A stretch of DNA of 33,061 bases, taken from positions 1 to 33,061 of the forward strand of contig JASJDH010000033.1 of NCBI GenBank assembly GCA_030065175.1, given 5' to 3'. Below, in pieces: positions 3,124 to 19,870 of the stretch. The stretch comes from Leptolyngbyaceae cyanobacterium MO_188.B28. Its GTDB lineage: Bacteria > Cyanobacteriota > Cyanobacteriia > Phormidesmidales > Phormidesmidaceae. The notes below the pieces were generated by a model that worked only from the letters and a program-made list of their open reading frames with translations, was not told the origin of the DNA and did no database searches. The stretch's first letter is position 1. Every line of letters starts with the position of its first letter. The position numbers and the translations under genes were made by a program.

Positions 3124-3492
3124 TTAATGCTGCAATTGACTGCGGGTGATTTGGACCGAAATTTCGCCGCCAAAGTCGGGAATGGGAGCGGCTAATTTTG
3201 AGAGGGTGACTTGGATCTGGCTAAGTCGTGGGTCGGTGTGCAGACAGGCTTGGGCGATCGCACTAGCCAATTTCTCAATCAGTGCAAATTTTTCGGTTTT
3301 GATAATCTGCTGGGTGATGCGAATGATGTTGCGGTAGTCGCAGGTATCGGCGAGGCGATCGCTCTCTCCAGCTTTGGCAAGGTCCAGCCATAGGATGAGG
3401 TCTACTTCAAACCATTGACCGAGTACTTGTTCTTCAGGTAGGGCTCCCGTGTAGCCGTAGGCTCGAATGCCTTTAAGTTGAATGGTGTCCAT
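3124..3492 (-). CDS. folB: Dihydroneopterin aldolase
   Basis: MDTIQLKGIRAYGYTGALPEEQVLGQWFEVDL...DTCDYRNI...FALIEKLASAIAQ is typical FolB. Confidence 0.93.
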   Translation of the reverse strand: MDTIQLKGIRAYGYTGALPEEQVLGQWFEVDLILWLDLAKAGESDRLADTCDYRNIIRITQQIIKTEKFALIEKLASAIAQACLHTDPRLSQIQVTLSKLAAPIPDFGGEISVQITRSQLQH

Positions 3493-4759: not shown

Positions 4760-5338
4760 CTAGCCTCCAAGAACATTTGCGTAGAGGTCCCTTAGTTCAA
4801 GGGTAACTGGCATAGACGATAGCGTCACCTTGGAGTCCACACCACTATATTCTGTGAACAGCCATTGATATTCAGACTGCTTTACAAATTGCTCTACATG
4901 GTATCTGTCTTGGGCAATCAGCAAATATTCTTGCAGCGTGGGAATTGTGCGATAGGCCTCGAACTTGTCGCCTCGGTCGTAGCTTGCCGTGGAATCAGAC
5001 AACACCTCTGCAATCATCAGTGGATTGGTCACGGTATCTTTGCGGCCTGGTTTAAGTTCGACTGGATCTGCGATCGCCATCACATCTGGATAGGTATACA
5101 GATCTACTGCCGGAATCCAAAGTCGCTGATCGGTGACAAAGACGCTGTAGGGCTTGCCCCGTAAGCCAAACCACAACACTGCATTCAACGCAGTCGCAAT
5201 TTTATTGTGCTCAGGCGCTCCACCAGTCCTGGGGACAATTTCTCCGTTGCGATATTCGTTGCGAATGTCAGACTGAATTTCCAGCACCAGATAGTCTTCG
5301 GCAGTGTGGGTTGTGAGTTGGTTAGCTGCGATCGCCAT
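4760..5338 (-). CDS. Uma2 family endonuclease-like protein (DUF820)
   Basis: TAEDYLVLEIQSDIRNEYRNGEIVPRTGGAPEHNKIATALNAVL...YTYPDVMAIAD...NPLMIAEVLSDSTASYDRGDKFEAYRTIPTLQEYLLI. Confidence 0.92.
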   Translation of the reverse strand: MAIAANQLTTHTAEDYLVLEIQSDIRNEYRNGEIVPRTGGAPEHNKIATALNAVLWFGLRGKPYSVFVTDQRLWIPAVDLYTYPDVMAIADPVELKPGRKDTVTNPLMIAEVLSDSTASYDRGDKFEAYRTIPTLQEYLLIAQDRYHVEQFVKQSEYQWLFTEYSGVDSKVTLSSMPVTLELRDLYANVLGG

Positions 5339-8834: not shown

Positions 8835-8891
8835 TGGTCCCCAAAAACTGGACAGGGAGCTAAGCTCTGAACACTCGAAAAATAATAGGAG

Positions 8892-9215
8892 TTGTTCATG
8901 GGTAAAAAACGCAAACAGTATAGTCCCCAATTCAAAGCTAAAGTAGCGATAGAAGCGCTTCAGGGGATGAAAACTGTAGCTGAGCTATCTAGCCATTATG
9001 ATATCCATCCCACTATGATCAATAGCTGGAAGCGTCAGCTGACAGAAGGGGCCAGCGACCTGTTTGATGCGACTCAAGGCAAGCACAAACAGCAATCGGA
9101 TCCACAAGCAGAGATCAACGAACTGTATCGTCAGATTGGTCAACTCAAGGTAGAACGAGATTTTTTAGCCGAGCGCTCAGCCAAATTGGGCTTAACGAAC
9201 GAAAAGCCTTGGTAG
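8892..9215 (+). CDS. IS3-family transposase OrfA (HTH)
   Basis: MFMGKKRKQYSPQFKAKVAIEALQGMKTVAELSSHYDIHPTMINSWKRQL. Confidence 0.93.
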   Translation: MFMGKKRKQYSPQFKAKVAIEALQGMKTVAELSSHYDIHPTMINSWKRQLTEGASDLFDATQGKHKQQSDPQAEINELYRQIGQLKVERDFLAERSAKLGLTNEKPW

Positions 9216-10021
9216 ATGAGGCCCATCCTCATTTGAGTCTGGTGCGACAATGCCAGTTGCTGCGGATCAATCGTTCCAGTCTCTACTACCGGCCAGTAGC
9301 GCCGTCAGAGGAGGAATTGGCCTTACTTCGATTGCTTGACCAACAGTACCTGCAAACCCCTTTTTATGGCAGTCGGCGGATGACGGAACACTTGCGTCAG
9401 CAAGGCTATCAAGTCAATCGCAAGCGGGTGCGACGCTTGATGCATCAACTGGGTTTGCAAGCGATTTATCCTAAGCCCAAGTTGAGTACAGCGCATCCAG
9501 AGCACAAGATATATCCCTACTTGTTACGTGAGGTTGAAATTGTCTGTGTCAATCAGGTTTGGAGCACCGATATCACCTATCTGCCGGTGCTCAAGGGCCA
9601 TTTCTATTTGGTGGCGATTATGGACTGGTATAGCCGTAAGGTGCTCAGTTGGCGAGTGTCGAATACGATGGATGTTTATTTCTGTATTGCGGCTTTAGAG
9701 GAGGCGCTCTCAATCTATTCCCCTCCCCAGATCTTCAACTCTGACCAAGGCGCCCAGTTCACAGCGAACGCCTTCACAGAACGGCTTAAACACTCAGAGA
9801 TAGAGATCAGTATGGATGGTCGAGGTCGCTGTCATGACAATATTTTCATTGAACGGCTATGGCGTTCTGTGAAATGGGAATTAATTTATCTCAAGGCATT
9901 TGAGGATGGTCAACACTTAATGGAGGAACTGAAAGCTTGGTTTAATTGGTACAACCGGTTGAGACCCCATCAATCACTGAATTATCGAACACCAGATGAA
10001 ATCTATTACGAATGTGATTGA
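9209..10021 (+). CDS. IS3-family transposase OrfB (rve integrase core, DDE)
   Basis: WSTDITYLPVLKGHFYLVAIMDWYSRKVLSW...NSDQGAQFTANAF...GRCHDNIFIERLWRSVKWELIY. Overlaps orfA in the -1 frame, so likely made by frameshift fusion. Confidence 0.95.
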   Translation: MVDEAHPHLSLVRQCQLLRINRSSLYYRPVAPSEEELALLRLLDQQYLQTPFYGSRRMTEHLRQQGYQVNRKRVRRLMHQLGLQAIYPKPKLSTAHPEHKIYPYLLREVEIVCVNQVWSTDITYLPVLKGHFYLVAIMDWYSRKVLSWRVSNTMDVYFCIAALEEALSIYSPPQIFNSDQGAQFTANAFTERLKHSEIEISMDGRGRCHDNIFIERLWRSVKWELIYLKAFEDGQHLMEELKAWFNWYNRLRPHQSLNYRTPDEIYYECD

Positions 10022-10154
10022 GTGTGGTACTCTCTGAAAAAGAGAAGAACTTGTTTAGGATTTTCAGAGCTTATTAGCCCTTTCAAGTTGTCTAAGCATT
10101 GGGGTCCACTTCAGTTCAACAACGGAGCTTCGCGACGTTCCGACTGACAAATTG

Positions 10155-10246
10155 ACATAACCAGTCGCTGGACCGGAGCCTCGGGGCCAGCGGGAATCAA
10201 GTGGCAAACGCTGACTGCCGCAGCTCGGTCAGCTTGATCGTTATGT
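10155..10246 (+). other. Candidate integron attC recombination site (attC1)
   Basis: R'' ACATAAC (10155-10161) and R' GTTATGT (10240-10246) are exactly complementary. Inner arms GCTGGACCGGAGC (10167-10179) and GCTCGGTCAGC (10223-10233) pair over 11 bp with two extra G on the left arm. Total 92 bp. Confidence 0.8.
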
Positions 10247-10450
10247 GGCGTGAGTTATCGGCTAGGGAAGTGCACAACCTCTCACCACAGGTTAATTCGA
10301 AATGTGGCTCGGTCTGTGGCCGCTTAATAATCCGGACGCAGTAAAGCGGAATTCACTTAACGAAAGCTTGAGAGCTATGGAGGCAGGTGCGATCGCATTA
10401 GCTTGATCTGAACTTTTGCTAATATCGAAGCAAATAGCCTGACTACTTCT

Positions 10451-10789
10451 ATGCCATTTACAATTTCTGCCGACTCCCCTCCCTTAGAAATTAATGCTGA
10501 TAACGTAGTGCTGGTCGGCAAAACCCGTGTCACACTCGATACTGTGGTGAGTGTTTTCAAACAAGGTACGACCGCTGAGGAAATCGTTTATCGCTATCCT
10601 GCACTGAAGCTAGCGGACGTTTACGCCACGATTGCTTTCTACCTCAACCATCAGCAAATGGTTGAGAAGTATCTGAATGACCGACAAGCCCAGGCCCAGG
10701 AGGTGCAACAGCTCAATGAAGCTCGGTTAGACCCTCATGGTATCCGCGATAGACTTCTATCTCGCAAACATGAACAAGAGGCATGTTGA
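10451..10789 (+). CDS. DUF433 domain protein (putative antitoxin)
   Basis: NADNVVLVGKTRVTLDTVVSVFKQGTTAEEIVYRYPALKLADVYATIAFYLNHQQMVEKYL is typical DUF433. Confidence 0.9.
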   Translation: MPFTISADSPPLEINADNVVLVGKTRVTLDTVVSVFKQGTTAEEIVYRYPALKLADVYATIAFYLNHQQMVEKYLNDRQAQAQEVQQLNEARLDPHGIRDRLLSRKHEQEAC

Positions 10790-11133
10790 AGCTGCTTGCA
10801 GATGAAAACTTTGACAATACAATTATCAGGGGACTACTAAGACGCAATCCAAGGATTGATATTGTCAGGGTTCAAGATGTTGAATTATCAGGCCAGGATG
10901 ATCCAGCCGTTCTTGCCGGGGCAGCAAAAGAAAATCGGGTGTTGGTAACTCATGATGTTGCTACGATTACCAAATATGCCTATGAGAGAGTGGCAAAAGG
11001 GTATCCGATGCCGGGAGTGATTGAAGTTCGCACAGATGTACCTATAGGCCAGATAATTGAAGATATTTTACTCATCCTAGAATGTATTTCTACAGGAGAA
11101 TTAGAAGGTCAAATTTTATATCTGCCCTTGTAG
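10783..11133 (+). CDS. DUF5615 PIN-like protein (putative toxin)
   Basis: MLKLLADENFDNTIIRGLLRRNPRIDIVRVQDVELSGQDDPAVLAGAAKENRVLVTHDVATI is a PIN-like DUF5615 signature; overlaps the DUF433 ORF by 7 bp. Confidence 0.9.
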   Translation: MLKLLADENFDNTIIRGLLRRNPRIDIVRVQDVELSGQDDPAVLAGAAKENRVLVTHDVATITKYAYERVAKGYPMPGVIEVRTDVPIGQIIEDILLILECISTGELEGQILYLPL

Positions 11134-11175
11134 GAGCAATCTCAACTTCTCTTTATAAAATATGATTGTGACGCC

Positions 11176-11264
11176 ACATAACAACCTTGGTGCAGCGGGC
11201 TGACCTAAGCTATTTGGCGCCGATTTACAAGGATGCTGGCAGCCGCTGACCAGGAACGTTAGCT
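11176..11264 (+). other. Candidate integron attC recombination site (attC2)
   Basis: R'' ACATAAC (11176-11182) and R' GTTAGCT (11258-11264). Inner arms TGGTGCAGCGGGCTG (11188-11202) and CAGCCGCTGACCA (11240-11252) pair over 13 bp with two extra G on the left arm. Total 89 bp. Confidence 0.8.
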
Positions 11265-16859: not shown

Positions 16860-18410
16860 CTAATCATCTCCCTGCACACCTTGAACAATTCGTGAAAGTT
16901 CACTTTTCTCATCAACTGAAATCCGAGTCGGGGCGCCGCTAATGATCCGCTCCAGGTTGCGGAAGGAGTCTTTAATTTCGGGACCATGGGCGCTAATGGT
17001 ATACTCTCGAATTCCTTTATCGTGCCAAGATCCCCTCATCTTAAAGACGTTAATGGCGCGAGACATCTGCCCTCGAATCTCAACGTATTGGAGCATTAAG
17101 ATAGTATCGGTAATGGTCGAAATGTGGGAGTCAGTAATGGAGTGAGAGCCCATGAACTGTTCAGTTGTATTGGTGAAAAAGCCCGTTATTTCTTCCTGCT
17201 TAGCATAGCCGGTCACCCCGATCACAAATTGCCGGAAGGAATTGTTGCTAACCCCTCGATCCAAGGCTGAAAGGGAATCAATCGCGATTCGAGCTGGCTT
17301 AAAGTCGGCAATTTCAGATTTGATGATCTGTAAATGATCCTCCAAACCCGCTGATTCAGGATAGGCGCAAATGATTTTGAGCAGCCCCTTCCGCTCTAAT
17401 TCCTCAAAGTTAATTCCCCAGGAAGACGCATTTCGAAAAAGCTGAGCCCTGGATTCCTCATAAGCGAATAGAATGGCCCGCTCTCCCGCCTTGCAAGCAT
17501 CTTCCAAAAACTTACTGACCAGTAGGGTTTTACCAGTTCCGGTAGCGCCAGTGGCCAAGATAATTGAATCTTTGAAAAAGCCGCCGCCGCACATTTCATC
17601 CAGTGTTTTAACTCCAGATGAAACCCGAACATTAGAAGACCTTTGAGTTAACCGCATCGCCCCAAGTGGGAAAATATTGATGCCCTGATCTGTGATTGTA
17701 AAGGGATATTCCCCTTTCATATGGGTGGTTCCCCGCAGCTTAAGAATTTCGATGGTGCGTCGCCGCCGTTCTCCCTCTAAGACATTTCGCACAATCACCA
17801 CATTGTCCGAAACAAACTCCTCCACGCCATAACGGGCGACCGGGCCATATTCTTCTACCCGCTCTGTGGTCATTAAAGTGGTTGCGCCCATTTGCTTTAA
17901 TCGAGCCACTAGGCGAAAGATTTCCCGGCGGACGACGGAAGCCGCGTCATATTGTTGGAAAACAGCGGTGACTGAATCAATTGAAACTCGCTTAGCTTTA
18001 TATTTACGGATTGCGTACTGGATACGTTCAATTAATGCTGACAGATCAAAGTTGCCAATTACATCCTGACCTTCAGGATCGGGTGAAGCGTCCAGAATAA
18101 ACAGCTTGCCATCCTCCACTAGCTGCTGAAGATTCCACCCAAAACTAAAGGCATTCTTAATAATGTCATCTGGAGATTCTTCGAAGGTGACAAAAATCCC
18201 CGGCTCCTCGAAGTGAATGATGCCATTGTAGAGGAATTGGACCGTCATCATGGTCTTGCCCGTGCCGGAGGTGCCGCTGACCAGAGTCGTTCTGCCAACT
18301 GGCAGGCCGCCATGGCTAATGTCATCAAACCCTTCGATCATGGTTCGAATCTTTTGAACGCCCGTTAGCTTTACCTTGTCTTTTTGCCCATCTACAGAAG
18401 AATGATACAT
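16860..18410 (-). CDS. kaiC: Circadian clock ATPase/autokinase KaiC
   Basis: Two RecA-like domains with Walker A GTSGTGKTMM and GATGTGKTLL; MGSHSITDSHISTITDTILMLQYVEIRGQMSRAINVFKMRGSWHDKGIREYTIS; ISVDEKSELSRIVQGVQ. Confidence 0.98.
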   Translation of the reverse strand: MYHSSVDGQKDKVKLTGVQKIRTMIEGFDDISHGGLPVGRTTLVSGTSGTGKTMMTVQFLYNGIIHFEEPGIFVTFEESPDDIIKNAFSFGWNLQQLVEDGKLFILDASPDPEGQDVIGNFDLSALIERIQYAIRKYKAKRVSIDSVTAVFQQYDAASVVRREIFRLVARLKQMGATTLMTTERVEEYGPVARYGVEEFVSDNVVIVRNVLEGERRRRTIEILKLRGTTHMKGEYPFTITDQGINIFPLGAMRLTQRSSNVRVSSGVKTLDEMCGGGFFKDSIILATGATGTGKTLLVSKFLEDACKAGERAILFAYEESRAQLFRNASSWGINFEELERKGLLKIICAYPESAGLEDHLQIIKSEIADFKPARIAIDSLSALDRGVSNNSFRQFVIGVTGYAKQEEITGFFTNTTEQFMGSHSITDSHISTITDTILMLQYVEIRGQMSRAINVFKMRGSWHDKGIREYTISAHGPEIKDSFRNLERIISGAPTRISVDEKSELSRIVQGVQGDD

Positions 18411-18566: not shown

Positions 18567-18875
18567 TCAAATTTCATCTTCGTGTAATTCATCGTAGAGT
18601 AAATCTAGCCCAATCAGCACCTTCTCACGATCGGATAAATCCCCAATAATTTTCCGAACAGGCGGCGGCAAAATTTTTGCTAAGGTAGGCGTCGCCAATA
18701 TTTTGTCCTCCTCGGCTAATTGAGGATTTTTCAATACATCGATCACCTTCAATGCATAGACTCCTTGAAATTCCCGTTCCAAAATATTGTTAAGAGTCTT
18801 GAGCGCTCGAAGCGAGTTTGGAGTGTTTCCAGCAACATAGAGTTTGAGGATATAGGTTTCTTTAGAGGAACTCAT
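18567..18875 (-). CDS. kaiB: Circadian clock protein KaiB
   Basis: [92 protein letters not shown]. Confidence 0.98.
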
Positions 18876-18949: not shown

Positions 18950-19870
18950 TCACATCTCCCGAGGAATTGAGCGACGGTACATCTCACACAGATGGGCAAT
19001 GACATCAATCAGAGTTAATCGATAATCCAGTAAAATTTCCTCGCTGCGGCCTTCTAACTGAAGTTGCTTGGAAAACTCATCCATCAGGTCCATGTGAATT
19101 CCAACCAGTTGAGAAACTGAAATATCGGCAAAAAAAGCGACATTGACATAGTCATCAATTTTTTGATTGAGGTTACTATCCTTAGCAAAATATTTAAGGA
19201 CAATGATGCGATAATCTGTCCTGAGCTTTTCCAATAATTCTTGCCGCTCAGGCTTAGTCATATTCCGCAAAAAGTTTTGCGGGTTTCGCTTGTAGTAGAC
19301 GCCCAAATAACCTAATCGTTCTTTTAATTTTTCTGCCAAACGCTGCTGCTGGAGACTTAGGAGAAGATGCGGAGAGGCCTCGTCTCCCCTTAATTGAGAA
19401 TCAGACTCATCTCTAGAAGCCGGTAGCTTGAGGAACTGATCGATCGCCTGATGGACTTGGCGCTCCAGCTGATCCAAATTAGTGAGCGCCAGACGGATGA
19501 CTGCGCCATGATAGGTGGGAATCGCCCCTTTAGCGGCGGCCACCCTTTTTTCGGGGGAGGGGTCCGTATCTGCTGGAGCCAGTATTGTCTCCGCTTCAGT
19601 TTGAATGGGCTTCTCTCCGTCATCACTAATCAATAGAGTGGGTAATAGAATGTCTTGATCCTGTAGCCGCTGAAATAGAGAGTTAACCTCTGGTCCATCC
19701 TGGATCAACAAACAGTCGATTTTCTGGCGGTTGTCAATTACCCAAGTCAGAAAACCCACATCGGATACAGCCCAGTTAACGGTATATGAATTACCTTCTA
19801 GACATCGTCTCAAACTGTGGGTGATCTCGTCGGAAGTTACAAAGATACCAATCAAGAAGTTAGCTGGCAA
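18950..19870 (-). CDS. kaiA: Circadian clock protein KaiA (likely TTG start)
   Basis: N-terminal pseudo-receiver and C-terminal LKERLGYLGVYYKRNPQNFLRNMTKPERQELLEKLRTDYRIIVLKYFAKDSNLNQKIDDYVNVAFFADISVSQLVGIHMDLMDEFSKQLQLEGRSEEILLDYRLTLIDVIAHLCEMYRRSIPRE; upstream of kaiBC. Confidence 0.97.
   Translation of the reverse strand: MPANFLIGIFVTSDEITHSLRRCLEGNSYTVNWAVSDVGFLTWVIDNRQKIDCLLIQDGPEVNSLFQRLQDQDILLPTLLISDDGEKPIQTEAETILAPADTDPSPEKRVAAAKGAIPTYHGAVIRLALTNLDQLERQVHQAIDQFLKLPASRDESDSQLRGDEASPHLLLSLQQQRLAEKLKERLGYLGVYYKRNPQNFLRNMTKPERQELLEKLRTDYRIIVLKYFAKDSNLNQKIDDYVNVAFFADISVSQLVGIHMDLMDEFSKQLQLEGRSEEILLDYRLTLIDVIAHLCEMYRRSIPREM

Follow-up and report, generated by a model that had tools for sequence, protein, structure and literature searches.

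Structure of the two palindromes

Two imperfect palindromes flank a short gene pair in the window analysed here, which comprises a whole contig (C100; 33,061 bp) of a cyanobacterial genome assembly of 8.48 Mb (650 contigs, 83% complete). This raises the question whether they are attC sites of an integron and whether the pair between them forms a gene cassette. Based on its sequence features, the region very probably represents a cyanobacterial integron cassette, in which a DUF433-DUF5615 pair is followed by its own attC and which was inserted at the attC of another cassette. The features are as follows, with attC scores given for R1, a covariance model built from eleven attC sites of the same genome, including both window sites.

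8835–10108, + strand: IS3-family element, a neighbour outside the cassette (NF033516 transpos_IS3, 283.5 bits)
10155–10246, + strand: attC site 1, R'' box ACATAAC at 10155–10161 and R' box GTTATGT at 10240–10246, both read directly (R1 58.4 bits, E 3.7e-9)
10241–11258, + strand: gene cassette, 1,018 bp (12-bp complementarity of its ends; reconstituted attC z −6.16)
10451–10789, + strand: DUF433 (COG2442) protein, 112 aa, probable antitoxin (PF04255, 40.9 bits, E 1.8e-10)
10783–11133, + strand: DUF5615 protein, 116 aa, probable toxin (PF18480, 39.4 bits, E 5.8e-10)
11176–11264, + strand: attC site 2, R'' box ACATAAC at 11176–11182 and R' box GTTAGCT at 11258–11264, both read directly (R1 78.4 bits, E 7e-14)

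Direct reading placed both palindromes, their outer boxes and their bulged stems where the initial annotation had located them. Compared to the consensus RYYYAAC...GTTRRRY, the AAC...GTT part is exact, and the R'' box of both sites deviates at one of the four variable positions. In the inner stem, the left arm GCTG-G-ACCG-G-AGC of site 1 lies opposite GCTCGGTCAGC, and the left arm TGGT-G-CAGCGG-G-CTG of site 2 opposite CAGCCGCTGACCA. Alignment and pair counts revealed paired L'' and L' boxes with unpaired spacers of 5–6 nt, and the bulge columns of 107 sites revealed that the R''-L'' arm carries two extrahelical bases at a distance of about 6 nt (4 nt in site 1). The two window sites are spaced by 1,021 bp, and the cassette starts with TTATGTGGCG, past the G|TT crossover in site 1, and ends on the G of the site 2 GTT. 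Site 1 is the left boundary of the cassette and itself the end of an upstream cassette that was lost or interrupted by an IS element, and site 2 is the attC belonging to the toxin-antitoxin cassette.

Folding of the bottom strand, which had been proposed as a check, gave better structures than shuffled sequences for both sites, but only modestly so (z −2.75 for site 1 and −1.37 for site 2), and hairpin folding of chromosomal attC sites is weak when these are taken one by one. Since single-strand folding alone beats shuffled sequences only modestly, the case beyond chance rests on comparison.

Recurrence and covariation of the sites

Searching the own genome (8.5 Mb) with R1 resulted in 57 matches at E<=10, with 40 at E<=0.01 distributed over 26 contigs; two or more sites are present on 11 of these. 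Covariance scores below background had been named in advance as evidence against attC sites; those of the two window sites, both part of the training set, are instead far above it, and together with the recurrence of the structure with compensatory changes this upholds the interpretation of the palindromes as attC sites. The model also recovered the class 1 attC sites of aadA1, aadA2, cmlA1, and estX (L222), while 150 kb of E. coli K-12, a small control, yielded no sites, and Rfam gave no match at the gathering threshold. A plain DNA search of the genome with the cassette revealed weak full-length matches of site 2 on contigs C623 and C65 (69–72% similarity), which on inspection displayed the same boxes, stems, and bulges as site 2.

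The alignment of the eleven sites was good enough to put the bulge in one column. Within it, both partners had changed in 12 of 20 base pairs, and covariation scored 0.427, compared to 0.146 for shuffled sequences and at most 0.081 for slid partners. The structure had been drawn from these same sequences, and the count was therefore repeated on 32 sites of a relative (G007), resulting in 0.432 compared to 0.125 for shuffled sequences, in a model-based alignment that leans toward the model.

Cassette ends and boundaries

If crossover takes place at G|TT, the R'' box of a site should match the R' box of the preceding site better than its own R' box. Among 41 adjacent pairs, R'' agreed with the preceding R' at 2.93 of four variable positions, with its own R' at 2.12, and with shuffled partners at 2.23 (p<5e-5). 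For the six flanking bases, the corresponding values were 2.71, 1.85, and 2.02 (41 adjacent pairs; p<5e-5). The window cassette is among the clearest cases, matching at all four variable positions and at five of the six flanking bases. When its ends are rejoined at G|TT into one attC, they form a perfect 12-bp outer stem with a z of −6.16, compared to −1.37 for site 2 as it stands. Because the ends match and rejoin into one better hairpin, the cassette is delimited as the 1,018 bp given above. In the 41 adjacent attC pairs, cassette ends match for a few bases past the 7-nt R box more than by chance. To our knowledge, matching beyond this box has not been stated for other integrons.

These data bear on whether the palindromes might be terminators or hairpins that arose by chance, unrelated to each other and only accidentally placed around a gene pair. 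The weak bottom-strand fold of site 2 would fit such hairpins, but dozens of sites display this geometry with compensatory changes, and the two cassette ends fit one another better than site 2 fits itself. This reading, to which we assign virtually no probability, is thus refuted by covariation and by end matching.

Integrase genes

Consistent with the initial annotation, which had reported no integrase gene in the window, none was found on contig C100. It had also called for a search for further attC sites and an intI elsewhere in the genome; besides the roughly 40 sites, an intI is indeed present, though frameshifted. It lies at C623:2700–3642, where a single frameshift near 3,197 splits it into two overlapping frames (224 and 247 bits). 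An attC (371–456) is located upstream on the opposite strand, 2.2 kb away. Direct repeats of the type ttatNcgtcactNttgacagttaag were seen just upstream of the gene (C623 2400–2700) and are a candidate attI region. An intact intI was not found in this 83%-complete assembly. Fragments or decayed copies of intI were observed on contigs C274, C242, C637, C441, C115, and C594, with the N-terminal piece on C441 lying 309 bp from an attC (2449–2536). From these fragments, and from the C441 piece beside an attC, it follows that this genome harbors the remains of at least two decayed integrons.

At this locus, two attC sites occur within 4 kb without intI, in line with the definition of a CALIN (at least two attC sites within this distance), and with no intI beside the array on contig C100 it does not represent a complete integron. 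The locus had initially been regarded as either a CALIN or a piece of a sedentary integron. The former designation fits, whereas the latter is less apt, as the sites are dispersed and do not form one large array.

In the relatives, intI above the curated cut-off was detected in 26 of 59 genomes and an R1 match at E<=0.01 in 55 of 59, many of them without an intact integrase. Near the examined intact intI loci, attC was located upstream and on the opposite strand in all 26 cases, corresponding to the classical layout. Plasmid pB of Kovacikia minuta carries an annotated integron integrase together with five attC sites. When nine cyanobacterial IntI proteins were aligned to the solved VchIntIA, the six catalytic residues were kept in all nine, and seven of them kept every bulge-contact residue of IntI1.

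Bulged hairpins of another element, such as IS200/IS605 ends, REP/RAYT repeats, or a MITE family, also had to be considered, as dispersed bulged single-stranded hairpins are typical of those families too and most of the sites are singletons. However, intact intI genes are accompanied by these sites in the classical arrangement, R1 recognises class 1 attC, the crossover is at GTT, and each site closes a different gene instead of belonging to one repeated sequence. We therefore consider such an origin very unlikely.

Proposed mobility of the cassette

In the integron mechanism, the bottom strand folds and IntI recombines at G|TT (PMC2727003, PMC3053210). Applied to this locus, the folded bottom strand would offer the tyrosine recombinase IntI its paired R and L boxes together with an unpaired spacer and two bulged bases, and IntI would cut G|TT in the R' box. 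Recombination of site 1 with site 2 would then release a circle of 1,018 bp with a complete and better-matched attC hairpin, which could re-insert at attI, at another attC, or at a chromosomal GTT-like site. IntI would presumably have been supplied by the now frameshifted gene on C623, by a copy missing from the 83%-complete assembly, or by a donor. By analogy with other integron toxin-antitoxin cassettes, the pair is probably self-maintained by addiction.

Whether the cassette is still mobile is a separate matter. It might be a real cassette but a fossil, immobile now that intI is broken, with the pair persisting by addiction alone, and we regard the chances of this as evenly balanced. The frameshift on C623 and the fragmentary state of the remaining intI pieces speak for it, as does the relative G007, which keeps its sites without a recognisable integrase (see below). 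On the other side, assembly completeness is 83%, the frameshift may stem from an error in the assembly, and a plasmid of the pB kind could bring in IntI. Moreover, the 12 bp over which the cassette ends match have stayed intact, so that the last recombination was probably recent. In any case, a fossil state bears on present activity and not on the identity of the cassette.

Probable toxin-antitoxin pair

Pfam matches to PF04255 and PF18480 identified the two genes as DUF433 and DUF5615 members, as the initial annotation had proposed. They overlap by 7 nt, and the DUF5615 gene, oriented toward its attC, stops at 11133, 42 bp ahead of site 2 (11176). The expectation that cassette genes point toward their attC thus holds for the window pair, and also for the upstream gene in 76 of 92 cases from three sets of sites. 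Scanning the cassette for promoters revealed none upstream on its own strand.

Judged by family membership, the two proteins form a probable toxin-antitoxin pair. Antitoxin function of DUF433/COG2442 has been established experimentally for vapBC10 of Synechocystis (PMC3834315), and the DUF5615 protein may be toxic, as the pairing of the families suggests. Neither protein matched an entry in NCBIfam or PADLOC. A fold search with the predicted model of the DUF5615 protein (pLDDT 91.9) gave no significant match in the PDB and thus did not confirm a PIN fold. As in the PIN-COG2442 loci, e.g., vapBC10 of Synechocystis PCC 6803 (PMC3834315), a DUF433 antitoxin gene precedes the toxin gene in a short cyanobacterial operon. 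In contrast to vapBC10, the partner is here a DUF5615 protein, for which searches by sequence and by fold revealed no relative of solved structure, so that a PIN-type nuclease activity is putative at most.

DUF5615 homologues were present in 18 of the 34 genomes searched, including the own genome, mostly with an adjoining DUF433 gene. Occurrence of the pair without palindromes elsewhere had been regarded as evidence against a cassette, and in this respect the outcome was divided: the closest homologous pair (L191, 84%) and the next (L192, 72%) are without detectable attC, while seven more distant loci (L193, L194, L196, L199, L205, L208, and L209) harbor an attC downstream of the pair, mostly within about 30 bp. 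Since its closest homologues lack attC, the pair is not tied to cassettes. Together with the IS3 element 46 bp upstream of site 1, these two homologues might indicate that the pair moves mainly by plasmid, homologous recombination, or IS, with attC being incidental, but in view of the seven loci with attC downstream we consider this improbable.

Genomic neighbourhood

The IS3-family element upstream of the cassette contains two open reading frames (8892–9215 and 9209–10021). Its ends, TGGTCCCC.../...GGGGTCCA, were read by eye, so that the boundary is approximate; they are imperfect, and no obvious target duplication was seen at 8835–10108. The element may have removed the upstream cassette.

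Downstream of site 2 lies a gene for a sigma-70-family factor, and 7.7 kb further on kaiA (18950–19870) was identified by Pfam, in agreement with the proximity to the kai clock region noted at the outset. Two open reading frames (16860–18410 and 18567–18875) stand where kaiC and kaiB would be expected, and the former is 86–88% identical in relatives. A 15-bp repeat shared by the right end of site 2 (11258) and the start of kaiA (19859) was discarded, as it is at about chance level in 33 kb and no attC is found there.

The comparison of kaiA synteny in named genomes stopped short of the sigma-factor side. The orthologous sigma-factor gene itself was compared in 29 relatives; beside it, neither the cassette nor an attC was detected, save one weak 24-bit match. 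The insertion at this place is therefore restricted to the present lineage. In G001, a sibling species, similarity ends 155 bp past site 2.

Relation to known integrons

In common with integron cassettes and CALINs in the sense of IntegronFinder (PMC9024848), the sites described here have the R''-L''-L'-R' layout, the GTT crossover, two bulges on the R''-L'' arm, a single co-oriented gene unit, and related intI genes within both the genome and the family. They differ in that mostly single dispersed sites occur, that C is found at the L'' bulge, and that the assembly contains no intact intI. Class 1 attC sites (aadA1, aadA2, cmlA1, and estX in L222) are recognised by R1 and mostly share the bulge spacing (N6), but measure 60–71 bp compared to 84–92 bp for the cyanobacterial sites.

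Integrons are listed in Cyanobacteria (PMC8618304, PMC9668308), and the attC of this phylum, the same as here, is distinct enough to have its own model (PMC8352920). Our searches of these three papers revealed no description of this locus, the dispersal, or the bulge base. Cyanobacterial integrons as such are thus already on record (also in PMC2426708), and what is less expected here are the mostly dispersed singletons and the C at the bulge. Our analysis adds a well-bounded toxin-antitoxin cassette to a phylum in which integrons are listed but, in the literature searched here, little described.

Bulged base at L''

On the bottom strand, T and C are bulged (A and G on the top strand) in most of the 107 sites, with C at L'' in 98 of them. 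Both window sites likewise have C, and not G, at the L'' bulge of the bottom strand. Since the model could bias this count, it is of note that a scan ignoring the bulge base agrees with it, revealing a top-strand G in 25 of 29 sites. G is described as usual but not obligatory at this position (PMC3053210, PMC2727003), and Larouche and Roy, according to whom most attC sites carry G at the bulge, gave blaVIM-2 as the only C-type cassette (PMC3053210). In our class 1 control (L222), aadA-type sites have G at the L'' bulge, whereas the cmlA1 and estX sites (1784–1853 and 4862–4932) read C like the cyanobacterial ones, so that the C type also exists outside cyanobacteria. When G was exchanged for C by engineering, excision by some integrases increased in one study (PMC3053210), and integration dropped slightly in another (PMC2727003). 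A C-type bulge across a whole lineage therefore provides a natural test of the role of this base.

Dispersal of single cassettes

Of the 92 sites in three nearly closed genomes, 52 have no other site within 4 kb. In the relative G007, 28 attC-like sites lie dispersed, and intI was not detected above E 1e-30. Because the default threshold of IntegronFinder 2 is two attC sites (PMC9024848), below which single sites fall, such dispersed cassettes are easily missed.

In a search for the chromosomal points at which single cassettes begin, upstream sequence agreed with the complement of R'' and its flank at 8.04 of 12 positions, compared to 7.74 and 7.67 in controls. We hypothesise that the single cassettes could have been inserted at chromosomal attG-type sites, for which PMC11023631 refers to Loot et al. 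(2024). Tentatively, cyanobacterial integrons might even follow a distinct mode, with C at the L'' bulge as a rule, longer matching ends (the R box and a few bases of its flank), and cassettes scattered singly on the chromosome, perhaps because they inserted again and again at GTT-like sites of the chromosome before intI was lost, though we see this as rather doubtful.

Finally, a subfamily of near-identical attC sites (AACGCCCATGCACACCGACCG...CGGCGGGTGATGGGCAACG) was observed in three genomes (L119:7079, L120:162, L129:21, L257:7026, L262:10479, and L111:3345), which suggests cassette exchange between species.
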